A stretch of DNA of 64,000 nucleotides. Origin: Roseiflexus sp. RS-1. Its GTDB lineage: Bacteria > Chloroflexota > Chloroflexia > Chloroflexales > Roseiflexaceae. How positions within the stretch are numbered: position 1 is the first letter of the stretch; the number at the start of each line of letters is the position of its first letter. Positions 4,716 through 29,426 of the stretch are shown in pieces. The translations under genes and the position numbers were made by a program. The DNA lies in the NCBI RefSeq assembly GCF_000016665.1, contig NC_009523.1, forward strand, positions 4,587,501 through 4,651,500, read 5' to 3'. The notes beneath the pieces were generated by a model. It was not told the origin of the DNA. It saw only the letters and a program-made list of their open reading frames with translations, and made no database searches.

Positions 4716-5237
4716 TCAACTGAAGGAAAAGTCTGTGAAGAGATAGCGGCGGTAATCTGCCACAACATAGCGCCTGCCTTTGCGGGCGATGGTGAAGCCT
4801 TCTTGTTCCAGCAGCGCCCTGTGCGCCTCCGCGCCGCCGGGGAATTTCTCGTTCAAGAAGCCGTCAGCCTTCAGGGTGCGCCAGTACGGGATGTCCAGCT
4901 CCGGCGGCGCGCCGCCCGCCTCGACGGCGGCGTTAGCAGCCGTCATGATAACGATGCCGGTGGTCAGCGTGCAGCAGCCCCTGACCTGGTAGTGCCGGGC
5001 AAGGGCCTGACAGATTTCGATGATCGTGGTGAGATGGCCGTAAGGCATCTGCCGCATCAACGCCACCACCTCGCCAGAGTTCACCAGCACAACCGGGTCG
5101 CCGGCCTCCACGCCTATGCTGTGCAGGGCGTTGTAGCAGGGAAATCGTTCTTCCAGGGGCAGAATCTTCGGCAGACCTTCCTTGTCCGCCATCTTCTCCT
5201 GCCAGGTTTTACGTCTTGATGCCATGTGAGTGGTCAT
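4716..5237 (-). CDS. MGMT-like (alkyltransferase-fold) family protein
   Basis: 173 residues. The start (KTWQEKMADKEGLPK), the central block (MRQMPYGHLTTIIEICQALA) and the end (PYWRTLKADG, NEKFPGG, GRRYVVADY) match the small proteins usually annotated as MGMT-family. These share the DNA-binding half of alkylguanine-DNA alkyltransferase. The alkyl-acceptor motif PCHR is absent; the nearest cysteines are in RGCCTLTTG. It may therefore bind DNA or recognise lesions and not repair them. It starts 10 bp after the truncated prenyltransferase frame ends, on the same strand. Confidence 0.55.
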   Translation of the reverse strand: MTTHMASRRKTWQEKMADKEGLPKILPLEERFPCYNALHSIGVEAGDPVVLVNSGEVVALMRQMPYGHLTTIIEICQALARHYQVRGCCTLTTGIVIMTAANAAVEAGGAPPELDIPYWRTLKADGFLNEKFPGGAEAHRALLEQEGFTIARKGRRYVVADYRRYLFTDFSFS

Positions 5238-5246
5238 TCACGGCGT

Positions 5247-5804
5247 TCAGCCAGGACATATGCACACCTCCAGATCAAAGACCAGCACAATCAGCGCAAA
5301 AGTCCAGACGATGGGGCTCCAGGGTCGGCCCACGGCAATCCCGCCAAGGACAAAGGTGATGCCCACTGAGATGGCCACGATGAGGTTGCCCCACAGCCCC
5401 GCCGCCTTGAGCCGCCAGTTGTACAGGAAGCCAAGCAGCCAGATGATCAGGCTGAGCCCGAGGGCCAGCGGACTGAAGGTCGCGGCGGCGACAAGCCCGA
5501 GCAGCGCCGTGACCAGACCGAGCGTCATCACCTCGGCCGGGGTGAGGACACCGGCGGGCAAGGGACGGTGTGGCGCGTTAATCCGATCTACTTCCAGGTC
5601 AAAGTAGTCATTGGTGATCAGCGCCGAGCCGGACAGCAAGAAGCCGCAGGCAAAGCCAGTCCCAAGGACGGGCAACGGGGGAACAGCGCCCAGTGCCAGC
5701 ACCTCCCCAAGCAGGACGCACACGCCTGCCGCGATAGGCAACTCGGGACGGAAGATCTGGATCACGCCCCGGGCTTTCCTGGCGATGCTGACTGGCGGTT
5801 GCAT
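5247..5804 (-). pseudogene. UbiA-type prenyltransferase, C-terminally truncated
   Basis: 185 residues, where UbiA enzymes normally have about 280-300. The first Asp-rich motif is intact (NDYFDLEVDRINAPHRPLPA) and several transmembrane helices follow. UbiA enzymes transfer a prenyl chain to an aromatic or glycerol-phosphate acceptor in the membrane. The frame diverges after the segment FALIVLVFDLE, just before the second Asp-rich motif (usually a DxxD pattern after REIxxD), and ends with CICPG. Without that motif it should be inactive. A start at 5804 near the segment MQPPVSIARKARG is plausible. The MGMT-like gene begins immediately after the break. Confidence 0.7.
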
Positions 5805-6928: not shown

Positions 6929-7242
6929 TGACAGTAGACCGCGTGCCAGAGTCGAAGGGTGCATACTACTTCGCGGTCTGGAAGTACCCCCCCTTGCTAA
7001 TTCTAACCCGTCTATGCGGTTACTGCTGGACGGTTGGCAGTGGAGTGAGAGGTGGTGTGCGTTGGAGAGAACTATCCGCCTTCCAGAGCATATCCTGGAA
7101 GCGGCGAACTAATAGCCGATGAATACTGTACAGTGCAGGAAGATGCGAACAATGATTTGTCTTACGTGGCGCAAGCAGTAAAAGAGGTGATCTGTTTACT
7201 TTCTTCAGATTGAAAGTCAGACATTGCCAAAGCATAAGTACG
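6929..7242 (+). other. Long, partly structured leader upstream of the island genes
   Basis: If transcription starts near 6929 the leader is about 310 nt. It contains the inverted pairs AGACCGCG (6936-6943) with CGCGGTCT (6972-6979), and CTTCCAG (7080-7086) with CTGGAAG (7095-7101). No small protein or known riboswitch is recognised. The stretch from 6660 to 6890 holds nothing identifiable. Confidence 0.3.
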
Positions 7243-10200
7243 ATGCTCTCGCAGATAATCCAACGTCAGATTCCAATAGGTAGCACTGTTATCTTTTCCC
7301 TGAAGGATGGGCAAGATGTAAGCGGAATCCTGGTAGAAATCGGACGCGACCACGTCACCCTGGAAAATGCCGGATATTCGGTGACCATCCTGCTAGAAAT
7401 GATCGGTACCTGGCGCGTTTCCAGGAGCCTAGAGCCACTGGAGCACACACCGATGCCAGAGCCGTCATCCGCTTCTCCACCTCCATTATCACCTCCAGAC
7501 CTTGCCGATCAGGAAACCATCAAGAGACTCCTGGAAATTGAAGCACGCTTTCAGGTCAGGCAACAGGTTTCTTTCATTCAGATAAAGGTGCCAGATTTTG
7601 TTTTTCCGGCGAATGAGATGCAGGGTAAGCAAAGCGCTAATGCACTGACAATCTGGAATCGCGTTAAGAACAAGTACGAATACGCAGAAAAAATAAATGA
7701 ACTGAGCGCTAAATTTGGTAGAATACAGTCTTTAGTAGGAGAGCTTGCTTCTCTATCAGAGCAATTTCCGCGTTCTTCTTCCGTGAAGCGGCACCTTGCG
7801 TATTTTTATCACCTTGCGGGCGATAACCAAAAGTCTCTGGCTTTGTATCAGGAATCAGCTTCCATTTCAAATAATGCCCTGGATTGGTATAACCTGGCAG
7901 CGAAGGCATTAGCAAAGGGCGATGAAGCGCTGGCTTGTTACTGTTTTGGGAATTTCTTCAAAGTGAATCCCATCACAGATGAATTGGACACCTGGTATAT
8001 CTACGCTGGCCTGATCAGGAAATTCTCCGACTATCAAACAATTAAAGAGATAGCCAGAAAAAGAGTAAAGATTGCATCGAAGGACGAGATTGTTTTGCTA
8101 TTGGAGACAGGGATCTACCTCTTAACTGCCACTGGACGCGGACAGATCGCCACGAATACTGTCCAACGCTGGATAAAAGACCATGCTCTCGAAGATTTAG
8201 TGATCGAGGTTTTTGACCATTTTCAAGAGCAAAAGGATGCAGCATACCATGAAAGAGTATCAGGTTTTTTAGAGGAAAAATCACCTGAATCTGTCCAAAT
8301 GAGTCTCGATAATCCACAAGGTTTTATTTTCTCATACAGGAGGGACCGTAACTTTGGTTTTCTCGAAGGTAAAGATGGAAGAAATTACTTTTTCCATATC
8401 ACTGCTGTATCTGATGACGACTTGCTTGCACAACTTCGTGATTTCACATCTGGCAAAAGGATACCGGTGATCTTCGAATCAAGTGAGGGACAGAAGGGTC
8501 CTATCGCGGTAAGGGTTGCGCTGTACCGTACTCTTGAAGAGATGTTTGCAAAGGCTGTTGAGTATGCCAATGATGGTGACTATTCGAAAGCGATTGCTTT
8601 TGTAAAGAAGGTACTGGATGCCAGACCCAATTTTCCATCTGCACAGGATTCCTATGAAAAGTGGCGTGAGTATGCCAGAGTTAGTGGTATTCCCAAAGGC
8701 TCAAATCCCTATGCGCGAGCCAAGCGTGTTCAACTAGTTGAGAAAGATCTTGAGCGAGCAGCCCAGCTGCTTCGTGATGCCATCAGGCAAGGCGATAATG
8801 TCGAAAGTGCTGTCAAAGACCTGGCAGCATTGCTGGTTCAACTGGGGAGACCAGATGAAGCCATTCAAGTGCTGGAAAAAAACAGGAGTCGTATTTCCAA
8901 CCAGCAGTCTGTGGATAATATGCTGATCAACTTTTATCAAAATGCTGGTCAACACGATAAAGCGATTTCACTACTTCACAAGCAGCTCCAGCAAGCCAAC
9001 ACAGAAACCAAAAAAGCACAGATTCTATGGCAGATTGCAATAGGATACCTCAGAAAAGAAGACTATGTTCGAGCCGAGCAGACTTTCCAGGAATTGCGAC
9101 GAGCGCAGCCTGACAACAAGTCCATACAAAGAAATATCGCTCTCTGTCTTTTTAAACAAGAACGTTATGAAGAGGCACGGAAAATACTGGATGGTATTTT
9201 ATTAACTACACCTGACCCCCAAGCGGCAGAGTTGCTGGAAGCAATTAGACAAGCACAGGTTGGTCAGGTGATTTCTATAAATGAAATAATTGTTGAGACA
9301 GCATTATCAGACATTCCTAGAGAAATTAGCGGATTTGCCAGGTTTTACCTGGATCGCTGTGATTATCAGGGGGTTCGAGCGGATCACATCCAGACAAAGA
9401 GTTTTGATCGCAGTGATATTTCGACTCTAGAACAGTTAGCTACACGTTCTCGAACTATTCGTCCGCGCGAACGCGCTAGTTATTACCTATCTGCAGCCAA
9501 AATAACTTCTTTGCTAGAAGATGAGGATCCGAATCAGTTTTATAAGTATCTTTGTCGTAGTTTCGCTTCGTCTGGCGACGCGATCGTTGTTGAAAACAGG
9601 CCATTAGATGCAGCGCGAGAGTATTACTGTGAAGCGCTAAGTGTATATGACGGAGATCGAAGCCGAAGCAGAGATGAACAGGATGCAGTCAATGCCTTGG
9701 TCAGATTTTTGTTTTCAACAATGGGACAATCACAAATCCCTATTAAACCAAGTATCCCCACTATTGATGAAACTCTGGAATTTGTTCTAACACGTCATCC
9801 TGATCGCAATAAAGCCTTCGATGCAATTGCCTATCTCGTTTTTCGTAGCCGGTACGCGGCTAATCGTTTGCTCAACCGAATCTACGACAAGTCGTCTCTA
9901 CAAGCAATGGCATTAGAGTATTTGAAGTCGGCAGGTGTATCTATCGGTATAGTAAAGCGCTTTGATGACTTTTTCAGGCTGTGGAACGGTTTGGTCAGGA
10001 AAATACTAGACGAAAACCGCTCTCTATTGAACGAATTTCGTATACTGAATCGAGTTGAACTTACTACTGCCTCCCTCGAACATGGAGTGGAAAGAATAAA
10101 GAAAATTACTGGAAGGTTATTCTTCGAACTCGATCGGCAAAGAGTGATACAAATTCAAAAGGTATTGGAAACTGCTCTTGAGTTGTGTAATCAGAACGCT

Positions 10201-11910
10201 TTTGAAGAAAAGGAGCGACTTTGTATTCAAATTGAGAATCGTTGCCAGGACCTGCTCAACGAGATTGAGATAAGCCCCACAAAGATTTCAGTAGAGGACA
10301 TGTACCCTCTTGTTAAAGGCATTCAGAGCAAGATAAACGCCTATTTGACACAACTATATGAAACATCAACACCACAGTTAACCATACGATTGCCTCTTGA
10401 AACTTACATGCCCGGAAATAACCGATTAATAGAGGCACAGGTTGGGATTAGCAACCGAGTGGGATGTAGCCCGGCCGAGGCAGTAGAACTGGTTATTCAG
10501 CAGTATGAAGAGACCTCTGCTATTAGGTTAGAAGGGTCTTTACGCGGTGGCGAACAGCGCATATTGAAAGTCCCTGTTCAACTCAGTGAAGAAGCTCTGT
10601 CCGCTCAGGCATTTTCGCTGCCCATCTACGCTCGTTACCGTACACGGTCAGGAGAAACTCAGCAGACGCCAGTTAACAACTTCTCGATTCGATTGAGCGC
10701 AGAATTTGAAGAAATCGAGAACCCCTATACCCCATATGCAGAGGGTGGTATTGTGGGTGAGTCTGCGATGTTTTATGGGCGTGATGAACTAATCGCCAAT
10801 GTGTCAAATGCATTGGATACATCCAGGGCGCAGAGCAAGTGCGTTGTGATATATGGTCAAAAGCGCGCCGGCAAGTCATCTATTCTTTATCATTTGCAGG
10901 AAAAGTTAAAATTAAAGGAAGATCTGCTCGTTGTGAATATAGGTAATATCGGGGGAATTCTCGATGAATTCTCGCGTATTCCCTTCTTGTATCATATTCT
11001 TTGGACTATTCTAAGTAAACTAAGGGATTCTCTTGAAGATAAGCTGAGTGAGGGTAGAAGCTCGCCGGATGTATCGTTTCCTTCTGGTATGGAGTTTTAT
11101 CAACATCAAAGTCCCCTATTGTTGTTTAGGGAGACTTTTGACCGTTTCCATCGATCGATTGAAAAACTTCCTGACTGGCGGGGTACGCGGGTTATTCTTT
11201 TGATAGATGAGTTCTCGTACATTTATGGATATATCTTGAAGGGTATGATCCCAGAAACGTTCATGAAAAACTGGAAGGCAATGTTGCAAGACAACTTCTT
11301 TAACGCCGTTCTGGTCGGACAGGACGTCATGCCTAAGTTTAAGCAACGTTTTCCGAATGAATTTGGGACAACTCAGGACGAGAGAGTGACCTATCTCAGG
11401 CGAGAGGACGCTATCAGACTGATTGATGAACCAATTAGGATTGGTGGGCGCCATGGAGAGAGTCGTTATCGTGAAAGAGCCATTGAGCGAATCTTGGAGT
11501 TAACCGCAGGAAGCCCTTTTTATATCCAGATATTATGCAATCGTCTCGTTGAGTATATGAACCGCAAGCGTGCCAGTCTTGTGACAGAAGCTGATGTCGA
11601 ACAGGTAAAAGATGAACTGATAAGAGGTGTAAATGCTCTCGGTAAAGATAAGTTCGATAATTTGATCAATTCGGGTGATACATCACAAGATGCAATCAGC
11701 GATGAAGATGCGTTAAAGGTGCTTACTGCGATTGCCGAGAACAGTCGCACCGGTCCCTGCAGTCGCAGCAGTATTGCCTGTGAGACCAGTATACCCGTCG
11801 ACGAGATTCTTGAAGACCTTGTCAGGCGTGATGTGATAGAACGTGAGCGGGGTCACTACTACTCCATTCGTGTCGGATTGTTCAGAGAATGGCTGCTTGC
11901 TCATAGTTGA
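7243..11910 (+). CDS. Giant LSm / TPR / cold-shock / STAND ATPase (putative sensor)
   Basis: 1,555 residues from the ATG at 7243; a TTG at 7210 would add 11. Neither start has a good ribosome site. Visible order: an LSm/Hfq-like beta fold (IPIGSTVIFSLKDGQDVSG, residues ~10-60), a Pro/Ser linker, TPR-like helices (~140-300), a cold-shock-like domain (~357-428: GFIFSYRRDRNFGFLEG, YFFH), more TPR helices (~445-690), a long helical region, a beta-rich segment, then a STAND-type NTPase from NPYTPYAEGG (~1165). Walker A is YGQKRAGKSS (~1203) and Walker B is VILLIDEFSYI (~1317); a winged helix ends the protein. LSm and cold-shock folds usually bind RNA, so RNA sensing is a reasonable inference. It is followed after 7 bp by the HEPN gene. 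The base composition is markedly AT-richer than its surroundings, which suggests transfer. Confidence 0.75.
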   Translation: MLSQIIQRQIPIGSTVIFSLKDGQDVSGILVEIGRDHVTLENAGYSVTILLEMIGTWRVSRSLEPLEHTPMPEPSSASPPPLSPPDLADQETIKRLLEIEARFQVRQQVSFIQIKVPDFVFPANEMQGKQSANALTIWNRVKNKYEYAEKINELSAKFGRIQSLVGELASLSEQFPRSSSVKRHLAYFYHLAGDNQKSLALYQESASISNNALDWYNLAAKALAKGDEALACYCFGNFFKVNPITDELDTWYIYAGLIRKFSDYQTIKEIARKRVKIASKDEIVLLLETGIYLLTATGRGQIATNTVQRWIKDHALEDLVIEVFDHFQEQKDAAYHERVSGFLEEKSPESVQMSLDNPQGFIFSYRRDRNFGFLEGKDGRNYFFHITAVSDDDLLAQLRDFTSGKRIPVIFESSEGQKGPIAVRVALYRTLEEMFAKAVEYANDGDYSKAIAFVKKVLDARPNFPSAQDSYEKWREYARVSGIPKGSNPYARAKRVQLVEKDLERAAQLLRDAIRQGDNVESAVKDLAALLVQLGRPDEAIQVLEKNRSRISNQQSVDNMLINFYQNAGQHDKAISLLHKQLQQANTETKKAQILWQIAIGYLRKEDYVRAEQTFQELRRAQPDNKSIQRNIALCLFKQERYEEARKILDGILLTTPDPQAAELLEAIRQAQVGQVISINEIIVETALSDIPREISGFARFYLDRCDYQGVRADHIQTKSFDRSDISTLEQLATRSRTIRPRERASYYLSAAKITSLLEDEDPNQFYKYLCRSFASSGDAIVVENRPLDAAREYYCEALSVYDGDRSRSRDEQDAVNALVRFLFSTMGQSQIPIKPSIPTIDETLEFVLTRHPDRNKAFDAIAYLVFRSRYAANRLLNRIYDKSSLQAMALEYLKSAGVSIGIVKRFDDFFRLWNGLVRKILDENRSLLNEFRILNRVELTTASLEHGVERIKKITGRLFFELDRQRVIQIQKVLETALELCNQNAFEEKERLCIQIENRCQDLLNEIEISPTKISVEDMYPLVKGIQSKINAYLTQLYETSTPQLTIRLPLETYMPGNNRLIEAQVGISNRVGCSPAEAVELVIQQYEETSAIRLEGSLRGGEQRILKVPVQLSEEALSAQAFSLPIYARYRTRSGETQQTPVNNFSIRLSAEFEEIENPYTPYAEGGIVGESAMFYGRDELIANVSNALDTSRAQSKCVVIYGQKRAGKSSILYHLQEKLKLKEDLLVVNIGNIGGILDEFSRIPFLYHILWTILSKLRDSLEDKLSEGRSSPDVSFPSGMEFYQHQSPLLLFRETFDRFHRSIEKLPDWRGTRVILLIDEFSYIYGYILKGMIPETFMKNWKAMLQDNFFNAVLVGQDVMPKFKQRFPNEFGTTQDERVTYLRREDAIRLIDEPIRIGGRHGESRYRERAIERILELTAGSPFYIQILCNRLVEYMNRKRASLVTEADVEQVKDELIRGVNALGKDKFDNLINSGDTSQDAISDEDALKVLTAIAENSRTGPCSRSSIACETSIPVDEILEDLVRRDVIERERGHYYSIRVGLFREWLLAHS

Positions 11911-11917
11911 GGCGGCA

Positions 11918-13432
11918 ATGTCGGAACGCGATTTTATAAATCCATTCAGTGACTATGGACATATAGTACACGGCGATCGTTTTATTGATCGTTGTAGTAG
12001 TATTCGCGCCGTCGAGAACCGCGTCATTCGTCCTAAAGAACCGGGTAATCTGGCAATCATTGGTGATTACCGGATCGGTAAAAGTAGCCTGGCATATCAG
12101 TCTATTATGGAGCGTAAGAATGATCTTCTGAAAGAAAGACGACTCCCTGTTTGGATCAACCTGGCAACTTTTGATCAACCATCTCTATTCTTTCGTGCGC
12201 TTGTTACCAGTAGTTATGATGAATTGGATAATCTGGGATGGCTTTCTAATGATATCAAGAACGCTGCTGCCCGTGCGCTTCAGGATGAAGTCTCCTGGAG
12301 CGAAGGGTATGGGCGGATTCAGCGCTACTTTGAGAAAGTACGTCGCTCTGGCATACGTATTTTGTTTATTCTTGATGAGTTTGATCATGCACGTAAACTA
12401 TTCAAAGGAGATGTTTCAGGATTTCAAGGATTGCGTGAACTGTCTTATCGACCTGAATGGCGCGTGACTTTCGTTACGACATCTCGAAGGTCGTTGCAAA
12501 GTATTGAGTTACAGACTGCGGCCATCTCAACCCTCGATCACACTTTTCATAAACATTACCTGGGTATGTTTGATGAAGATGCACTTGAGGAGTATTTCAA
12601 GCGATTATCATCGATAGGCATTACAATAACACCGCAAGTCAGAGAGAGGCTTTTTTTCTACTGTGATGGACATCCTTACCTGCTCGAAATGCTAGGTTAT
12701 GAAGTAGTGGAGCTGTTTCGTGAAACAGGCATTGTTGATGTAGATCAGGCGACTAAGGATGTTGGGCAATCTTTTATTGATCATTACGAGCATACATTGG
12801 AAGTGCTCAAGGAAGATGAAAAACTTAACAAGATGTTGCAGATTCTGTTTGGTCCTGTGATTGATGCGAAACTAACTGATGCTGAAGAGTTGCAAAGGTA
12901 TGGTCTTATAAAGCTCAACGATGAGGATGTTTATGTCGCTTTTTCGGAGCATTTCCAGACATATCTGAGGATAATAGAGCGCTATGTTGATTTGTGGCCC
13001 CTATGGCGGGAGACAGAGATGGCGTTACGACGTGTTATTACGGAAAAGATGATAGAGCATTACGGCGAGCAGTGGATTGAGAGGTTGTGCAAGGAGAAGC
13101 CTAAGATAAGGACAATATTTGAGAAGAGTGAAGAGGCGCAAAAGCAAGAGGAAAGATCTTTCGGCGATAGGGCATCTCGCAATCTAGTTGATTTTATGTA
13201 CCCAAGAGGCTTGTTTGATATCATATTTGCGGAATGGTCGGTTTTCAGGGATGTTTTCGGTAAAGACAAAAACTACTGGGATCAGCGTGCTCAGTTATTG
13301 TCAAAAGTGCGAAATCCTCTGGCTCACAATCGAGATATGGCACTCTATGACTATGAGCGTCGGATAGCAGAAGGATATTGCGGAGAAATACTCACAGCGC
13401 TAGAAAAATATCGATCGGCAAGTAATGCGTGA
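11918..13432 (+). CDS. STAND NTPase with C-terminal Swt1-like HEPN domain (putative effector)
   Basis: 504 residues. The ATG at 11918 follows GAGG and lies 7 bp after the upstream stop; a longer frame back to 11843 would overlap the upstream gene. The N-terminus (NPFSDYGHIVHGDRFIDR) resembles the entry to the STAND domain of its neighbour. Walker A is IGDYRIGKSSL (~residue 50) and Walker B is ILFILDEFDHA (~150). The last 100 residues are helical with LLSKVRNPLAHNRD (~460), the RNxxxH motif of HEPN ribonuclease domains, close to the Swt1-type. HEPN domains are established RNA-cleaving effectors in anti-phage and toxin systems. Tandem spacing and shared AT-rich composition indicate co-expression with the giant sensor. 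RNase function is inferred from the motif only. Confidence 0.75.
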   Translation: MSERDFINPFSDYGHIVHGDRFIDRCSSIRAVENRVIRPKEPGNLAIIGDYRIGKSSLAYQSIMERKNDLLKERRLPVWINLATFDQPSLFFRALVTSSYDELDNLGWLSNDIKNAAARALQDEVSWSEGYGRIQRYFEKVRRSGIRILFILDEFDHARKLFKGDVSGFQGLRELSYRPEWRVTFVTTSRRSLQSIELQTAAISTLDHTFHKHYLGMFDEDALEEYFKRLSSIGITITPQVRERLFFYCDGHPYLLEMLGYEVVELFRETGIVDVDQATKDVGQSFIDHYEHTLEVLKEDEKLNKMLQILFGPVIDAKLTDAEELQRYGLIKLNDEDVYVAFSEHFQTYLRIIERYVDLWPLWRETEMALRRVITEKMIEHYGEQWIERLCKEKPKIRTIFEKSEEAQKQEERSFGDRASRNLVDFMYPRGLFDIIFAEWSVFRDVFGKDKNYWDQRAQLLSKVRNPLAHNRDMALYDYERRIAEGYCGEILTALEKYRSASNA

Positions 13433-13642: not shown

Positions 13643-14089
13643 TCATGCCTCCTCCCCCCGCTTCGTTTCGCGTGGCGCGCCGCTGCTTAGCGGCGCAACC
13701 TCGATCGGAATATCGGTGTCGCGGAGCAGCCGGGTGACGATGTCGCCGCTGATCCAGTGCCGCCAGGTGCGTGGGCGCGGTTTGCCGACGATGATGCGCT
13801 GTACGCCATGCTCGTGGGCATAGCGGAGGATCGAGTCGACGACACGGTGACTATCGATGACGGTGACGTGCGCTCCCAGGTCGCGCGCCAGGCGCAGGTT
13901 ACGCTCCAGTTGCTGCGCAGCGCGCGCCGGACGTCGTGTGGCAGCCCCCGGCGGCTCAACATGCAGTGCCAGCAATTCGGCGCCAAGTTCTACCCCTACG
14001 CGCGCTGCGTACCGGATAACCGCCTGCGATTGCGCTTCTTCGCTGATGCACACCAGAATGCGCACCGGCGCGGAACGTTGATCGGTCAC
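13643..14089 (-). CDS. Universal stress protein (UspA/KdpD-type) domain
   Basis: 148 residues: a beta strand (VRILVCISEE), then helix-strand repeats, ending with IIVGKPRPRTWRHWISGDIV, the position of the nucleotide-binding G-x2-G-x9-G(S/T) signature of UspA proteins. The form resembles the Usp segment of KdpD sensor kinases. Such proteins bind ATP or other adenine nucleotides and modulate partners. It starts 17 bp after the P-type ATPase gene on the same strand, so it may regulate that transporter. The partner assignment is inference from gene order. Confidence 0.75.
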   Translation of the reverse strand: MTDQRSAPVRILVCISEEAQSQAVIRYAARVGVELGAELLALHVEPPGAATRRPARAAQQLERNLRLARDLGAHVTVIDSHRVVDSILRYAHEHGVQRIIVGKPRPRTWRHWISGDIVTRLLRDTDIPIEVAPLSSGAPRETKRGEEA

Positions 14090-14106: not shown

Positions 14107-16896
14107 TCAAAATGCAAACTGCACCGCCTGATAGCGGCGTCGCCACCATTTGAAGATTTCGTCGGCAAACAGCATAATCACCGGGAAGCATGCCAGCATT
14201 ACCCAATGCTCCGGTTGCGGCGGCACGAAGTTGAACAGCGTCGCCAGAGGTTCGATATAGACCAGCGCCAGCATCAAGACCACCGAGAGCAATGTTCCAA
14301 CCACCAGCGCCCGGTTTGTGAACAGACCGATCCGGAAGACTGAACTCCGGCGCGTCCGGCTGGCGAATGCCACACCCACCTGCGCCATCACGATCGCCAT
14401 GTAGGTCAGGGTTGTCGCCTGGGCATAGATCTCGCCGCTGCTCTCCATCGGCATGCCGGGTCGCCATCCGGCGCTCCAGTACACGGTGAAAAACGCCAGT
14501 AACGCCAGTGCGCCTTCCAGCATGCCGAGCATTGCAAATGTGCGCAGCAATGTCTCACGGTCAAGGAGCGGCGCGGTGCGTGGGCGGGGTGGTTGCTCCA
14601 GGATGCCCGGTTCGGGTGGTTCGGTGCTTAAGGCGACCGACGGCAGCAGTTCGGTGCCGACATCGATCGCCAGCACCTGGAGCACGGTCAGCGGCAGCGG
14701 GGCGCCGATAATGACGCTCACGACGATGACGGCGGCTTCGGCGACATTGTGCGCAAAAATGTAAGCGGCGAGTTTCTGGATATTGGCGAAAATGGCGCGT
14801 CCTTCTTCGATGGCCAGCAGCAGACCGGCAGGGTGTTGCGCGTTGAGCACAATATCAGCGGCAGCCAGGGCGACCGCCGTTCCCGACGCGCTGACAACCA
14901 CGCCGATTTCCGCCTGTCGCAGTGCGGGTGCATCATTGATGCTGTCGCCTAAAAAAGCGACGATTTCGCCGCGTTGCTGCAGCGCTTCGACGATTCGCCG
15001 CTTGTGTGTTGCGTCCAGTTGCGCAAAAATGACATCTTCCAGCGGTGCGAGGATCAATCCGAGGTTGGCGCTGCTCATGGCATCGAGATCCGCACCGGTG
15101 ACGATCTGGACGTGCGGCGCATCGATCAGCCCCACTCGCCGCGCAATTGCTTCAGCGGTCAGTCCATATGCGCCGGTCACGATGATGACGCGAATGCCAG
15201 CCTTGCGACATCCCTCGATCAGTTGCACCACTTCTGGTTGCGGCGGCTCCTGGAGCGTGGCAAATCCGAGAAAGGTGAGATCGTGTTCAATATCTCGCGC
15301 GCGCCACATGATCCCTTCGAGCGGCTCTTCGACGGAGCGTGTGGCAAAAGCGACGACCCGCTGACCCTTGCGGGCATACTCATCGATGGCGTCCTCGATC
15401 TCCTGCCTCATCGCGTCGTCCAGGTCGCGAACGACACCGTGATACTGGATGCGGACGCAGATTGAAAGCACGGCGCGACCTGTTCCGCGCACATACGCTG
15501 ATAGTTCGCGTTTCCCATCGCGTTCGATGGCAACCACCACGCTGCCAAGTTGCCGGCGCGGTTCGTAAGGGAAACTCTGCAGACGAACGATGCGGTGACC
15601 GAGTGATGCTTCATCGATGCCACCGCGCGCCGCAGTCGCCAGCAGCGCCCCTTCCAGCGGATCACCGACGATGTACCAGTCGGGGTGGCTTGCGTCGGGC
15701 GGCATCAGACGCGAGTTGTTGCACAGTACCGCAGCGCGCAGAACTGCGGTCAGGTCGGGTTCGGATGCGACCCGTACCAGAGCGCGTTCGTACAGAAATG
15801 CGCCTTCTGGACGGTAGTCGCTGCCGGTTGTCGTGTAGACGCGCCCGCCAGCCCAGATAGCGCTGACCGTGAGGGTTGTGCTGGTCAACGTCTCGACGCG
15901 ATCGGCGCACAGCACGGTCGCCGAACTCAAACTTTCGACGCCCGCCAGTCGTCGAACCAGCACCCCATACCGCGCCAGGCGGCGGCGCGCCAGCGCCAGC
16001 GCCAGGGTAACCGTCGGCAGCAATCCTTCCGGCACGAAGGCGACGATCATTCCAATAGCGAAGATGATGCCGGCTTGAATGGTGAATTGTTGCCCGAAAA
16101 CGGTCAGCAGGAAGGCGCCAAGACCGGCGACAATCGCCACGCGAGTGATGGTGGCAGCCAGCGTGTTCAACGCCTGCCCCAGCGGGCTTGGCTCTGCGCG
16201 GAGCGCCGCCGTGCTTTCCGCGATAGTGCCGAGCAGAGTTTGCATGCCGGTATGAATGGCGACCAGGCTGCCCTGCCCCTCGAACACGACCGTTCCCGCC
16301 AGCAGAATGTTGGGTCGTTCCACCAGCGCCAGCGTCGGATCGGGCATCGCTCCGGCCACCTTGGTTACCGGCGCCGCGTTGCCGGTCAATGCCGTTTGCT
16401 TGACCCGCAACCCCTCGCTGGAGATCAGGTAGCCGTCGGCAACAACCACCGTTCCCGGCTTCAACGGCAGAATATCGCCGGGGACAACATCCGTCGTTGG
16501 AATCTGGCGTACCTGCCCGGCACGGCGCACATACGCGGTTGCGGGTAATAACTGGCGGAGTGCAGCGATAGCGCGTTCAGCCAGATATTCCTGCCATGCT
16601 GTGAAGATGCCGTTGAGGAGTGCAACCACGAGGATGACCCACCCGATCACGGGTGTGTCGCTGAGGAATGCCAGCAACCCGGCGATCAGCAGGATCAACG
16701 AGATCCAGTTGACGAACGAGGTCGCCAGACGGCGAAACGTGGAAACCGGCAGCGTGTCGGCAATCGCATTCGGACCGTAGCGTTCACGGCGTTTGCGCGC
16801 CTCCGCTTCGTCAATGCCATGGGGAGCGGTCTGCAACGCAGCGCAGACCTCAAGCGGCGACATTGCCGCAAGCTGATCCAGCGAGTGGTCCGACAC
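14107..16896 (-). CDS. P-type cation ATPase homologue with degenerate catalytic motifs
   Basis: 929 residues from the GTG at 16896, which has GAGGAG 4 bases upstream. The overall plan is that of P2-type ATPases: N-terminal cation-ATPase domain, paired membrane helices, VPEGLLPTVTLALALA in M4, the P domain with GDSINDAPALRQAEIGVVV, and C-terminal membrane helices. Key motifs have changed: the actuator TGE is TGN (LTGNAAPV, ~172), the phosphorylation site DKTGT is DRVET (CADRVETLT, ~332), and TGD before the P-domain helix is TGA. The acceptor Asp is kept, but normal dephosphorylation and Mg/ATP handling look compromised. It lies 19 bp after nuoE and 17 bp before usp. It may be a pseudo-pump, sensor or subunit. 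Confidence 0.8.
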   Translation of the reverse strand: MSDHSLDQLAAMSPLEVCAALQTAPHGIDEAEARKRRERYGPNAIADTLPVSTFRRLATSFVNWISLILLIAGLLAFLSDTPVIGWVILVVALLNGIFTAWQEYLAERAIAALRQLLPATAYVRRAGQVRQIPTTDVVPGDILPLKPGTVVVADGYLISSEGLRVKQTALTGNAAPVTKVAGAMPDPTLALVERPNILLAGTVVFEGQGSLVAIHTGMQTLLGTIAESTAALRAEPSPLGQALNTLAATITRVAIVAGLGAFLLTVFGQQFTIQAGIIFAIGMIVAFVPEGLLPTVTLALALARRRLARYGVLVRRLAGVESLSSATVLCADRVETLTSTTLTVSAIWAGGRVYTTTGSDYRPEGAFLYERALVRVASEPDLTAVLRAAVLCNNSRLMPPDASHPDWYIVGDPLEGALLATAARGGIDEASLGHRIVRLQSFPYEPRRQLGSVVVAIERDGKRELSAYVRGTGRAVLSICVRIQYHGVVRDLDDAMRQEIEDAIDEYARKGQRVVAFATRSVEEPLEGIMWRARDIEHDLTFLGFATLQEPPQPEVVQLIEGCRKAGIRVIIVTGAYGLTAEAIARRVGLIDAPHVQIVTGADLDAMSSANLGLILAPLEDVIFAQLDATHKRRIVEALQQRGEIVAFLGDSINDAPALRQAEIGVVVSASGTAVALAAADIVLNAQHPAGLLLAIEEGRAIFANIQKLAAYIFAHNVAEAAVIVVSVIIGAPLPLTVLQVLAIDVGTELLPSVALSTEPPEPGILEQPPRPRTAPLLDRETLLRTFAMLGMLEGALALLAFFTVYWSAGWRPGMPMESSGEIYAQATTLTYMAIVMAQVGVAFASRTRRSSVFRIGLFTNRALVVGTLLSVVLMLALVYIEPLATLFNFVPPQPEHWVMLACFPVIMLFADEIFKWWRRRYQAVQFAF

Positions 16897-16915: not shown

Positions 16916-17440
16916 TTACCGGTCTGCGTAGCGCCCTGAAATGCTGAGTTGCTCGCCAGACTCTGCACGCTGGCGGAGCATCGCCAGTACCTGTTCAACC
17001 TTCTCTGGCGTTGTCAGGTCGTGGTAATACTCCAGGTTTGCCTGCAACACCGGCGCATGATCACAGTCTGCCAGGCACTTGACCCGTTGCAGCGTGAACA
17101 TGCCATCAGGCGTCGTCTGGTCAACGCCGATGCCGAGTTTTGCCTGGAGCGTGGCGATCAGGTCTTCAGCGCCGCAGAACGCACATGGCACATCATCACA
17201 CACCTGGAGCACCCATTTGCCCACCGGTTGCTCGTACAGGAGCGAGTAGAACCCGGCGACCTCGAACACGTCAGTTGGCGGCATGTCAAGCAGTTCGGCC
17301 ACTTCGCGCATGGCTGCTTCGGTCAGGTAGCCATATTCGTCCTGTGCGATGAAGAGCAATGGGAGCACTGCACTCGGCTTGTGCGGATAGCGCGCAATGA
17401 TCGCTTCGATCTCGGCGCCGTGCTTTTCGATCAATGACAT
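16916..17440 (-). CDS. nuoE: NADH-quinone oxidoreductase subunit E (24 kDa)
   Basis: 174 residues. The thioredoxin-like ferredoxin subunit that carries the N1a [2Fe-2S] cluster next to the NADH-oxidising NuoF. Ligand cysteines are visible in VCDDVPCAFCGA and VKCLADCDHAP, and the helical N-terminus (IIARYPHKPSAVLPLLFIAQ) is typical. It follows nuoD by 18 bp. No nuoF follows; the next gene is the P-type ATPase homologue, so the remaining complex I genes must be elsewhere. Confidence 0.9.
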   Translation of the reverse strand: MSLIEKHGAEIEAIIARYPHKPSAVLPLLFIAQDEYGYLTEAAMREVAELLDMPPTDVFEVAGFYSLLYEQPVGKWVLQVCDDVPCAFCGAEDLIATLQAKLGIGVDQTTPDGMFTLQRVKCLADCDHAPVLQANLEYYHDLTTPEKVEQVLAMLRQRAESGEQLSISGRYADR

Positions 17441-17458
17441 ACTGAATCTCGTTTACGT

Positions 17459-18712
17459 TTATCGATCAACTTCTCCGAGTACCGGGTCGAGGGATGCAAT
17501 CAGCGCCACCAGGTCGGCGACAAGATGACCGCGCGCCATGTGGGGCAGCGATTGCAGGTTGACGAACGAAGGCGCACGGAAGTGGACACGGTAGGGTTTG
17601 GCGCTGCCATCGCTGACGATGTAGGTTGCAAGTTCTCCACGCGGTGATTCAACTGCTGCCAGTGCGTCGCCGCGCGGCGGTTTGAATCCTTCCGTCCATA
17701 GTTTGAAATGGTGGATGAGCGCTTCCATGCTCTGCGTGATTTCGCTCTTCGGCGGCGGCGCGATTTTGCGATCCGACGTCATGTAGGGTCCGGGACCTAT
17801 ATCGCGCAGACGTTGCAACGCCTGGCGGCAGATAGAGACGCTTTCGCGCATCTCCGCCATCCGCACCAGGTAGCGGTCATAAATATCGCCGTGAGTGGCG
17901 GTCGGAATGGCGAACGAATAGGTTTCGTAGCCGCAGTACGGCATCGTTTTACGCAGGTCCCACGCTACTCCGGTGGCGCGCAAGCCCGGTCCGGTCAATC
18001 CCAGGGCAATCGCCGCTTCGCTGTCGATCGCGCCGATCCCCTGCGTGCGCTCGATCCACAGCGGATTGTCGGTCAACAGAGCTTCGTATTCATCGATCCG
18101 CCCCGGCATGATCTGCAGAAATGCCTCGACGGCTGCATCGAACCCGGCAGGCAGATCATACGCCAGCCCTCCAACCCGGAAGTAACTGGTCATCATACGT
18201 GCGCCTGAGACCAGTTCGAAAATATCGAGGATCTGTTCGCGTTCACGGAAACCGTAGAGGAAGACGCTCATCGCCGCCAGATCGAGCGCATGGGTGCCAA
18301 GCCATACCAGATGGCTGGCGATCCGTTGCAGTTCCACCAGCAGCACCCGTGCAACGGTAGCGCGCTCTGGAACTTCGCAACCGAGCAGTTTTTCGACTGC
18401 CAGCACATAACTCAGATTATTGGAGAGCGGCGCCAGATAATCGGTGCGGTCGGTCAGCACCACCGCTTTCTGGTACGTCTTGCTCTCCATCGTTTTTTCG
18501 ATGCCGGTGTGCAGGAACCCGATGTCTGGCGCAACATCGACAACCGTTTCGCCATCCAGTTCAACGACCAGTCGCAGCACGCCGTGGGTGCTTGGGTGGT
18601 GGGGACCCATATTCAGCACCATGGTCTCTTTCTCTCCGGCAAGCGCCGGACGAGTGATCTGACTGGGTGCGGGAATGCTCAGATTGCGTGCGCGGATTTC
18701 GGCGACGGTCAT
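17459..18712 (-). CDS. nuoD: NADH-quinone oxidoreductase subunit D (49 kDa)
   Basis: 417 residues, full family length. Characteristic segments: NMGPHHPSTHGVLRLV near the N-terminus (quinone-site His), LAVEKLLGCEVPERA, VSGARMMTSYFRVGGL, and the C-terminal SFVNLQSLPHMARGHLVADL ending in DR. With NuoB it forms the quinone-reduction site of the peripheral arm. It is located 6 bp after nuoC in the nuoABCDE string. Confidence 0.95.
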   Translation of the reverse strand: MTVAEIRARNLSIPAPSQITRPALAGEKETMVLNMGPHHPSTHGVLRLVVELDGETVVDVAPDIGFLHTGIEKTMESKTYQKAVVLTDRTDYLAPLSNNLSYVLAVEKLLGCEVPERATVARVLLVELQRIASHLVWLGTHALDLAAMSVFLYGFREREQILDIFELVSGARMMTSYFRVGGLAYDLPAGFDAAVEAFLQIMPGRIDEYEALLTDNPLWIERTQGIGAIDSEAAIALGLTGPGLRATGVAWDLRKTMPYCGYETYSFAIPTATHGDIYDRYLVRMAEMRESVSICRQALQRLRDIGPGPYMTSDRKIAPPPKSEITQSMEALIHHFKLWTEGFKPPRGDALAAVESPRGELATYIVSDGSAKPYRVHFRAPSFVNLQSLPHMARGHLVADLVALIASLDPVLGEVDR

Positions 18713-18718
18713 AAAGGC

Positions 18719-19243
18719 TTACTCCTTCGCAAACGGTTTATGCGCATAGATTCGATCCTGGTTGAAGGTGAACGCCACCTCTTCGGCGCCGAGCGGCACA
18801 TCTTTGCGCAGCGGATGCCCCTCCCAATCTTCCGGCATCAGAATGCGTTCCAGACAGGGATGACCGGTAAAAATGATACCAAACATATCAAACGTCTCGC
18901 GCTCGTGGTAGTTGGCGCCGGGCCAGAGTCCGGTCAGGGATGGAACGGAAGGGTTATGCTCATCGACGCCAACTTTCAGGCAGATGCGGCTACGATTGGT
19001 AAATGATATCAGATGATAGACAACCTCGAAACGCGGCTCACGACCGAGATAATCGACGCCGCACAGATTCTCGAGGAAATTGAACCGCAATTCCGGGTCG
19101 TCGCGCAGAAAACGTGCGACATCGACGATCCGTTCCGGGCGAACGTACACGCTCAGGTCGCCGCGAAACTCCGCCGATCCAAGGATTGCATCAGGCAATG
19201 CCGCACGCAATCGCTCCAGCACGGTTGCATTGTCGAGCGCCAT
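18719..19243 (-). CDS. nuoC: NADH-quinone oxidoreductase subunit C (30 kDa)
   Basis: 174 residues from the ATG at 19243 (MALDNATVLERL), which has AGGAGAG upstream. A longer frame begins at 19390 but runs into nuoB. The family signature ERETFDMFGIIFTGHPCLER, followed by RILMPEDWEGHPLRKD, is intact. It is a structural subunit of the complex I peripheral arm. Confidence 0.95.
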   Translation of the reverse strand: MALDNATVLERLRAALPDAILGSAEFRGDLSVYVRPERIVDVARFLRDDPELRFNFLENLCGVDYLGREPRFEVVYHLISFTNRSRICLKVGVDEHNPSVPSLTGLWPGANYHERETFDMFGIIFTGHPCLERILMPEDWEGHPLRKDVPLGAEEVAFTFNQDRIYAHKPFAKE

Positions 19244-19281
19244 GTTTGAACTCTCCTGGCACAGGCTCGGCAGTGATTCCG

Positions 19282-19785
19282 CTACGAGAGGCGAACCGGC
19301 TCGCGCAATTCGCCATCGAGACGCATGCGCTTCACCTTCTCGTGCAGATGGATAATGCCATCGATCAGCGCTTCGGGACGCGGCGGGCACCCGGCGACGT
19401 AGACATCGACCGGAACGATTTCATCGACACCCTGCACGATCGCGTAATTGTTGAACACCCCGCCGCACGCCGCACAATCTCCCATGGCGATCACCCATTT
19501 CGGGTCTGCCATCTGATCGTACAGGCGGCGCACGACCGGCGCCATTTTCCGCGAGACGCGCCCGGCGACGATCATGAGATCCGCCTGACGCGGTGATGCC
19601 CGGTTGATCTCCATCCCGAAACGCGACAGGTCGTAATTGGCGCCCTGCGCGCCCATCATCTCGATGGCGCAGCACGCCAGACCAAACAGCAGGGGCCACA
19701 TCGCGCTCGATCGGCTCCAGTTGACCAGCTGTTCGAGCGATGCAGTGACGATTCCCATATCGCCCGCTTTTTGCTCTATTCCCAT
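19282..19785 (-). CDS. nuoB: NADH-quinone oxidoreductase subunit B
   Basis: 167 residues from the ATG at 19785, where GAGGAG sits 7 bases upstream. An earlier start at 19806 would place that ribosome site inside the gene. N2 [4Fe-4S] ligands are visible: the CC pair in [21 protein letters not shown], and [11 protein letters not shown]2 is the last cluster before quinone. The start overlaps the end of nuoA by 10 bp, which suggests translational coupling. Confidence 0.95.
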
Positions 19786-20132
19786 CGCAGTGCTCCTCGC
19801 CGCCACTCATAGATCAGTCCAATCACCAACACCACAAAGAACACCCCCATCGCCGCCAGCCCCGGAATGCCGAGTTGTCGATAGACCAGTGCATACGGGA
19901 ACAGGAAGATGATCTCGATATCGAACAGAATGAACAGCATCGCCACCAGATTGAATTTTATCGGAAAACGACGCTGTGCGGGACCAATCGGCTCCATGCC
20001 CGACTCATAGGGCATCAATTTGCGCCGATTGGGGCGCTGCGGTCCCAGGTAGCGTGAGAGGACGATCACGAAGACCGCAATGAACATTGCGACCAGAAAC
20101 AGCGTCAGAATGGGCAGATAGTCGATCAGCAT
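19776..20132 (-). CDS. nuoA: NADH-quinone oxidoreductase subunit A
   Basis: 118 residues from the ATG at 20132 ([12 protein letters not shown]), with AAGG upstream. Three transmembrane helices, with the conserved acidic loop PYESGMEP and the second-helix motif [12 protein letters not shown]. It is the first gene of the nuoABCDE string, driven by the promoter at 20224-20251. Confidence 0.93.
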
Positions 20133-20223
20133 CGATGGCGCCTTCGTCTGTATCGAATGGAGCAAACAAAGCGCGTGCCCGGGATGGCGGCGTCACCCGT
20201 GAAGCAGCGCCCGGATGCATGGC

Positions 20224-20251
20224 ATTATACGCCCTTCCAGATTTGTGTCAA
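20224..20251 (-). promoter_or_regulatory. nuo operon promoter
   Basis: On the minus strand TTGACA (20246-20251) and TATAAT (20224-20229) are separated by 16 bp. Both hexamers match consensus. The predicted start near 20217 leaves a leader of about 85 nt to nuoA. The -35 box begins at the stop codon of ogt. Confidence 0.85.
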
Positions 20252-28512: not shown

Positions 28513-29426
28513 AGAGCGTGATCAAAAACTAACATCTCGGATAGAGCCGATTCAGGAGCATTGCAATAGAACCAAGATAAAGAAAGGCTTCGCTTGATTC
28601 TGGATTGCGGTTGTTGCGGCGAATAATTATTCGCCGCTCCCAGCGATTGCGTCCCGCCCACGCAATCGAGCGTTCCACCACCCATCGCTTCGGGATGACG
28701 GCAAATCCCTTTTGTCCAGGCGGTTTTTCAATGACATTCAGGCGTATCGTCGTGTTCTGTTGCATCCATTCATTTAACCCTTGTTTGTATCCTTCATCCA
28801 CCCGAATCTCTTGCATCCGAGGAAACGATTGATGATGCGCGGCCAAAAGCCACTCCGCGCCTTCGGTATCAGAGATGTCCGCCGGATGGACGAGCACGCG
28901 CAGCAAGAACCCTTTTGTATCAACCCAGCATTGCCGTTTGCGCCCATTGACCTTTTTTTCCCCATCGTAGCCGCGTTCTCCGCCTGCTTCGGTCGTTTTG
29001 ACGGATTGGGAGTCCAGGACGCTGATGGACGGCTCCGGGTCACGATCCAACGCTTGTCGCGCCAGTTTCCGCAGCATATCATTCATTTTGACGAACGTTC
29101 CATCACGATTCCATTTGTCAAAATAGTACCGAACGGAGCTCATTGGCGGAACATCCGTCGGAAGCATGCGCCATTGACAGCCCGTGCGATGTTTGTACAG
29201 CAGGGCGTTGACGATCGCGCGGCGATCGATGTCGGTCGGACGCCCGCCGTTGGGCGACGGGGTGACGACGAGTGGCGCGATGGCGGCCCATTGCGCATCG
29301 GTCAGATCAGTTGCATCCTTGGTTGGATAGGATCGAAGCGCACGTCGTGGCATACGAGATTGCTCCTTATCAGAACGGCATGGTCGCCATCACGATACCA
29401 CAAATCCGGTTTTCTGATCGCCCTCT
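28513..29426 (-). mobile_element. IS5-family insertion sequence
   Basis: The ends AGAGCGTGATCAAAAA (28513) and, read from 29426 on the other strand, AGAGGGCGATCAGAAA match at 13 of 16 positions and bracket one intact transposase gene. No target duplication is visible: the left flank is the mntA tail and the right flank is a methyltransferase gene cut in its 3' part. Insertion was therefore accompanied or followed by deletion. Confidence 0.75.
28529..29353 (-). CDS. IS5-family DDE transposase
   Basis: 274 residues, apparently intact. The N-terminal DUF4096-like part reads LTDAQWAAIAPLV, GGRPTDIDRRAIVNALLY, TGCQWRMLPTDVPP. The DDE residues are in SVLDSQSVK (first Asp), IRVDEGYKQG (second Asp) and RWVVERSIAWAGRNR (Glu, with the Y/R signature region). 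It catalyses cut-and-paste transposition of its element. It is encoded in a single frame without programmed frameshifting. Confidence 0.9.
   Translation of the reverse strand: MPRRALRSYPTKDATDLTDAQWAAIAPLVVTPSPNGGRPTDIDRRAIVNALLYKHRTGCQWRMLPTDVPPMSSVRYYFDKWNRDGTFVKMNDMLRKLARQALDRDPEPSISVLDSQSVKTTEAGGERGYDGEKKVNGRKRQCWVDTKGFLLRVLVHPADISDTEGAEWLLAAHHQSFPRMQEIRVDEGYKQGLNEWMQQNTTIRLNVIEKPPGQKGFAVIPKRWVVERSIAWAGRNRWERRIIIRRNNRNPESSEAFLYLGSIAMLLNRLYPRC

Follow-up and report, generated by a model that had tools for sequence, protein, structure and literature searches.

Pseudo-enzymes are well known among kinases. Among P-type ATPases, human TMEM94/ERMA is a homolog with ten helices, a degenerate DKTGT motif (DKQGI) and no TGES (PMC12134183, PMC13322241). 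One group did not find ATPase activity (PMC12134183), while another claims D427-dependent Mg2+ transport (PMC13322241). In the potassium pump of E. coli, KdpB is regulated by KdpD via serine phosphorylation at S162 (PMC11018627). A review from 2023 on the families of P-type ATPases states that undescribed prokaryotic diversity remains, and the parts of it that are considered here make no mention of a dead bacterial pump (PMC10654040). The open-access literature searched yielded no precedent for a conserved, catalytically dead bacterial P-type ATPase, which is weak evidence, as subscription papers and preprints are mostly uncovered; for Roseiflexus together with P-type ATPase, it yielded unrelated matches only.

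Here, we describe a P2-type ATPase homolog (referred to as pseudopump) from Roseiflexus sp. RS-1. It is encoded in a stretch of 64,000 nucleotides that was analyzed as a whole (the window; NC_009523.1, positions 4,587,501 to 4,651,500). The host genome (G000) is a single contig of 5,801,598 bases. The features discussed are listed in Table 1.

Rewritten catalytic centre

The open reading frame has no internal stop codon. Its GTG start is preceded, at a distance of 4 nt, by a Shine-Dalgarno sequence (GAGGAG), and residues are numbered with this GTG as 1. A TTG at 16998 was rejected as start codon, because it overlaps nuoE, whereas the GTG has the Shine-Dalgarno sequence. The initial annotation, made from the sequence alone, had described a full-length P2-type architecture. 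This is borne out by four Pfam domains in the expected order (Cation_ATPase_N, E1-E2_ATPase, Hydrolase and Cation_ATPase_C); the A, P and N domains and the ten-helix membrane domain follow each other as is standard for P2-type pumps. By sequence, the closest solved relatives are the H,K- and Na,K-ATPase alpha chains. The motif changes that had been listed (TGE to TGN, DKTGT to DRVET, TGD to TGA) are present, the sequence reading LTGN, CADRVETLT and VTGA, and so are the motifs described as kept, PEGL (VPEGLLP) and GDxxNDAPAL (LGDSINDAPAL). Further losses can be added to that list: EPPQ stands in place of DPPR, RGT in place of KGA, GDS in place of GDG and Gln (Q449) in place of the N-domain Lys.

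Orthologs are found in four Roseiflexaceae genera and have 57-95% identity (88-95% in five congeners, 80% in G009, 57% in G007, 59% for a partial sequence in G013 and 61/64% for two fragments in G010). Whether DRVET and TGN are conserved had been raised as a check in the initial annotation. TGN, Arg333, EPPQ and TGA/TGG are kept across the four genera and, like GDS, are common to all orthologs that cover the respective site, for which reason chance and sequencing error were rejected as sources of the motif changes. In 31 canonical relatives, the standard residues are kept at the rewritten sites. These relatives are at least 95% fixed at 22 positions for which the clade has acquired another residue that does not vary within it; the switches include E173N, K333R, K470R, D550E, R553Q and G652S. 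The replacements are fixed, not scattered, which argues for a changed function.

A working enzyme would be expected to have DKTGT with its phosphorylatable Asp, the dephosphorylation motif TGE, and TGD plus DPPR in the P domain. The clade has DRVET (with Asn in place of Asp in G001), TGN in every ortholog covering the site, and TGA/TGG plus EPPQ. The clade has lost the DKTGT Lys, the DPPR Arg, the TGD Asp and the Lys of the ATP site, and often also the first Thr of DKTGT. In the GDG loop, which reads GDS[IV][NS]D in the clade, both Asp are kept, the Gly is lost and the Asn is sometimes lost. Of the HAD core, the clade retains T574, K632, D651, D655 and, in most species, D332. Asn at position 332 occurs in one genome only (G001), where the codon is AAT rather than GAT and the protein is 95% identical to that from the window. 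The contig has 395x coverage according to its record title, so an assembly error is unlikely.

With TGE, DKTGT, DPPR, TGD, KGA and the GDG glycine replaced, the alignments strongly support the view that the phosphorylation (Post-Albers) cycle cannot run as known. Canonical catalysis has very probably been lost. The protein may be capable of weak phosphate chemistry, given the HAD residues that are kept.

When 158 genomes of the class were searched, the pseudopump clade was limited to the four Roseiflexaceae genera. In a single-protein scan of genome contigs, which detects close relatives only, the nearest record with a name was a Roseiflexus MAG (95% protein identity). A bit-score gap splits the full-length or nearly full-length pseudopumps (lowest score 1252, the partial G013 protein) from the canonical pumps (from 857 downwards); the two fragments from G010 score lower because they are partial. 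Among 400 genomes of the phylum, 16 further high scorers from outside the class were examined, and all of these are canonical.

Table 1. Features of the pseudopump gene and its neighborhood (positions refer to the window)
Feature	Position	Strand	Basis and remarks
Pseudo-P-type ATPase gene	14107..16896	-	ORF, Pfam domains, ortholog alignment; 929 aa, GTG start
TGN (T171-N173), replaces A-domain TGE	16378..16386	-	Clade-invariant N173; canonical relatives have E, sister L014 has T
PEGL (P289-L292), M4 ion-site motif kept	16021..16032	-	Clade alignment
DRVET (D332-T336), replaces DKTGT	15889..15903	-	Clade-invariant R333; G001 has Asn (AAT) for D332
R470, replaces ATP-site Lys of KGA	15487..15489	-	Alignment with canonical relatives
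EPPQ (E550-Q553), replaces DPPR	15238..15249	-	Clade alignment
TGA (T574-A576), replaces TGD	15169..15177	-	Clade alignment
GDSIND (G650-D655), replaces GDGVND	14932..14949	-	Both Asp kept
M5 ion-site residues N717, E720 kept	14737..14748	-	Aligned to Na,K-ATPase alpha-3
M6 ion-site residues D745, T748, E749 kept (E749 for Asp)	14650..14664	-	Aligned to Na,K-ATPase alpha-3
Conserved neighbor gene for a 148-aa Usp-domain protein that resembles the Usp of KdpD	13643..14089	-	Domain and NCBIfam matches, synteny
nuoE, directly upstream of pseudopump, apparently same operon	16916..17440	-	Family match, synteny
nuoD	17459..18712	-	Position and synteny; name from sequence reading, not family search
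nuoC	18719..19390	-	Position and synteny; name from sequence reading, not family search
nuoB	19282..19806	-	Family match
nuoA	19776..20165	-	Family match
TTGACA-N16-TATAAT promoter-like site upstream of nuoA	20224..20251	-	12/12 matches; consensus match only

Gene neighborhood and a possible link to potassium

The pseudopump gene is apparently co-transcribed with nuoABCDE and with the gene for a Usp-domain protein. A consensus scan of the minus strand found no terminator-like site between nuoE and the pseudopump, which is weak evidence. The order nuoA-B-C-D-E-pseudopump-Usp occurs in seven genomes (six from Roseiflexus, and G009). In G010, the pseudopump is adjacent to Usp without nuo genes nearby. 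G007 lacks a clear Usp homolog, and the 19.5 kb that were examined there contain nothing that matches nuo; G013 also carries the gene without a clear Usp homolog. Usp is therefore not obligatory.

The apparently shared operon would be consistent with a protein that helps to assemble complex I or serves it as an accessory subunit. The protein could also be a partner subunit of the canonical paralog, which is present in most of the genomes carrying the pseudopump. In either case, it would have no ligand sensing of its own. We consider such a role unlikely, given the pseudopump-Usp pair without nuo in G010 and the lack of a nuo match around the G007 gene.

Complex I genes are scattered in the host genome. 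While nuoABCDE are in the window (16916-20165), another gene resembling nuoE and two resembling nuoH are found elsewhere (G000:C1:4438305, 2752730 and 3757345). Beyond the Usp gene, at 7210-13432 (+), the window has a low-GC stretch (about 44-50%) that codes for proteins of 1566 aa (TPR/cold-shock/AAA) and 529 aa (AAA-HEPN(Swt1)) and has a weak PADLOC match (PDC-M34B). It looks like a mobile defense-type island beside a conserved operon. Other ORFs in the window code for a 185-aa UbiA-family protein (5247-5804, (-)), which matches only profile positions 3-152 of 250 and may be truncated, for an adjoining methyltransferase-like DNA-binding protein (4716-5237) and for an IS4/5-type transposase (28529-29353, (-)).

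The best NCBIfam match of the Usp neighbor is to the Usp region of KdpD (PRK10490, E 6.8e-17; KdpD_non_kinase, E 9.5e-12), both matches being far below the curated full-length cut-offs. The N-terminal KdpD kinase domain is absent, since the alignment begins only at position 253 of the PRK10490 profile or 245 of NF038185. KdpD has an S-x-S motif for c-di-AMP, and this motif is not evident by eye in the Usp neighbor. Among the genomes searched, a KdpD_non_kinase protein from G027 provides, with its Usp domain, the nearest non-orthologous match to this neighbor (44%). The gene for this protein ends a kdpABC operon that starts about 4 kb downstream of L014, the sister pump (see below), and L014 is itself preceded by KdpD-like and response-regulator (KdpD/KdpE-like) genes. 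No kdpA was found in any of the six Roseiflexus genomes searched or in G009. The KdpD-like Usp, the kdp genes beside L014, the TrkA genes that follow the canonical paralog and the absence of kdpA point, through guilt by association, to monovalent-cation homeostasis, with K+ as the first candidate. K+ specificity of the pseudopump itself is suggested by homology and neighborhood.

Origin and related pumps

In a maximum-likelihood tree, the pseudopumps form one clade (100/100) that is sister to L014 (100/100) and stands beside canonical pumps from Chloroflexota. L014 (G027:C10:17189-19987) is a P2-type pump homolog. A grouping of L014 with the canonical pumps was rejected by the AU test (p 2.9e-5), a result that is strong but not final, as L014 has a long branch. 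L014 keeps DKTGT, DPPR, TGD and GDGTND but has TGT instead of TGE, and Glu instead of the KGA Lys. It shares about half of the switched residues of the clade, none of them catalytic. L014 is a likely intermediate toward the pseudopump. The simplest order, as read from this one sister sequence, suggests a stepwise loss in which the dephosphorylation Glu and the ATP-site Lys were lost first and the phosphorylation motif later.

The initial annotation had left two options, an ATPase with an altered cycle or a pseudo-enzyme that serves as a sensor or regulatory subunit. In the former, D332 would still be phosphorylated, with R333 acting for the Lys, and the loss of the Glu would make dephosphorylation very slow or divert it to a different path, resulting in a slow switch or a weak pump. 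Most orthologs do have D332, T574, K632, D651 and D655. In addition, L014 retains DKTGT when TGE is already lost, so that a phosphorylated and slowly released intermediate may have existed. Such a cycle is nevertheless quite unlikely, as the loss extends to the other catalytic residues, and one species has Asn for the catalytic Asp, which favors a pseudo-enzyme. The pseudo-enzyme part of the earlier reading is thus supported by the fixed motif losses and by Asn332 in G001; a sensor or regulatory role would be in line with the Usp/KdpD context.

Some related genes were observed in addition. L020 (G033:C75; L115:8441-11359) is another degenerate P-type ATPase from the same order, with TGE lost (QAE), PTGL for PEGL, GGAASD for GDGxND and the M5/M6 ligands lost, while DKTGT is kept. 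It is located directly upstream of a TrkA gene and has decayed or been repurposed along a line of its own. Two TrkA-type genes and a gene for a PAS histidine kinase come after the canonical Roseiflexus paralog L023 (G000:C1:3848203-3850956). Its counterparts in G003, G004 and G005 each have another P-type ATPase gene nearby on the same strand.

Ion site, predicted structure and selection

E290, N717, E720 and D745, which we take to be the M4/M5/M6 ligands of the K+ sites as aligned to Na,K-ATPase alpha-3, are conserved throughout the clade, as is E749, which is positioned where the second M6 Asp of Na,K-ATPase alpha-3 stands. Two canonical pumps (L101 and L113) also have Glu at this M6 position, so E749 is no sign of loss. 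AF2, run with a 13-sequence alignment, predicts a complete pump fold of the P-type with ten membrane helices (pLDDT 74.9, pTM 0.70). When the model was compared to solved structures, the best TM-score among the matches listed was that to SERCA (TMq 0.83), while VIA Z puts E2-type entries of SPCA, H,K- and Na,K-ATPase first.

The pseudopump is under strong purifying selection, with dN/dS (NG86) as low as that of the canonical paralog: 0.036-0.118 for the pseudopump, 0.076-0.121 for the paralog and 0.02-0.04 for nuoD, the ratios being rough for wider pairs, where dS is near or above 1. In nearly all comparisons, the P domain, site of the lost chemistry, has the lowest values (0.014-0.040). This bears on the idea of a passive cation channel or leak, in which the engine is uncoupled and a gated pathway is left through the membrane domain. 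The membrane domain and its ion-site carboxylates are retained and constrained, and, according to the title of a solved-structure entry, palytoxin can make Na,K-ATPase a channel. However, the P domain being the most constrained part would be odd for a plain leak, and we consider this function very unlikely.

The branch to G001, on which Asp was replaced by Asn, carries 59 synonymous and 22 nonsynonymous changes, compared with 32 and 8 for the branch to G000; this is no clear relaxation of selection. A dN/dS test had been suggested along with the initial annotation, which took the intact frame and the full membrane domain as arguments against simple decay, and the low ratios (0.04-0.12) together with the lack of stops agree with it. 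Nor do we see the alternative named there, a young pseudogene with normal sister orthologs, as no ortholog has DKTGT/TGE or stops. Although many catalytic residues are lost, a decaying pseudogene is hardly conceivable and was rejected, because dN/dS is as low as in the canonical paralog, the branch counts for G001 fit this, the frame is open in all complete orthologs, the replacements are fixed and gene order is conserved.

Proposed function

We see roughly even chances that the pseudopump is a pseudo-enzyme, a full-length but catalytically dead P2-type pump that is kept as a membrane receptor or regulator for a cation (probably K+) and is read out via the KdpD-like Usp. As far as can be read from the sequences, this proposal starts from fixed motif losses under purifying selection, retained pocket residues and a conserved linkage to Usp and nuo. 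From there, we infer cation binding, conformational signaling, Usp as partner and K+ as ligand. A monovalent cation, most likely K+, would bind to the intact M4/M5/M6 pocket (E290, N717, E720, D745 and E749). Its occupancy would set the shape of the A/P/N headpiece, with transitions between E1-like and E2-like states that do not involve phosphorylation. The co-encoded KdpD-type Usp would read this shape and relay the signal to K+ homeostasis or to the apparently co-transcribed complex I genes. Only tentatively do we go further and suggest that a bacterial P2-type pump was turned into a dedicated membrane K+ receptor which signals through a stand-alone KdpD-type Usp in lineages without Kdp, with a TGE-less intermediate surviving in a sister family.

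Comparison with known systems

With P2-type cation pumps (Na,K- and H,K-ATPase alpha, SERCA and bacterial P2 pumps), the pseudopump shares full-length homology, the same predicted fold, PEGL and the M5/M6 carboxylates, but their TGE, DKTGT, DPPR, TGD, KGA and GDG glycine are replaced. The canonical paralog L023 is 43% identical, has the same domain order and is a P2 pump with an M6 of the VDLGTD/IDLGTD type. It differs in that all of its catalytic motifs are intact and that TrkA genes follow it, not nuo and Usp.

KdpD and KdpD_non_kinase K+ sensors have the Usp domain that best matches the neighbor gene. The latter, however, codes for Usp alone, without a serine-kinase or histidine-kinase part. 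Because KdpD acts on KdpB (PMC11018627), contact between a P-type headpiece and parts of KdpD has precedent, but in E. coli this contact uses the N-terminal kinase domain of KdpD, which is absent in the Usp described here.

TMEM94/ERMA is the nearest analog found, as a P-type homolog with ten helices, a degenerate DKTGT and TGE(S) lost; the resemblance is likely convergent. It is eukaryotic and has its own GMN motif and PILPLL in M4, neither string being present in the window protein, where M4 reads VPEGLLPTV. TMEM94 keeps Asp-Lys and loses the GDGxND loop (GSSANL), while the pseudopump keeps the loop Asp residues and loses Lys/Thr. If the receptor reading is true, a primary-active transporter has been converted to a sensor. 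The nearest analog is itself disputed, and what a dead ion pump does can be tested directly in this small bacterial family, as it has a half-degenerate sister and a close paralog that works.
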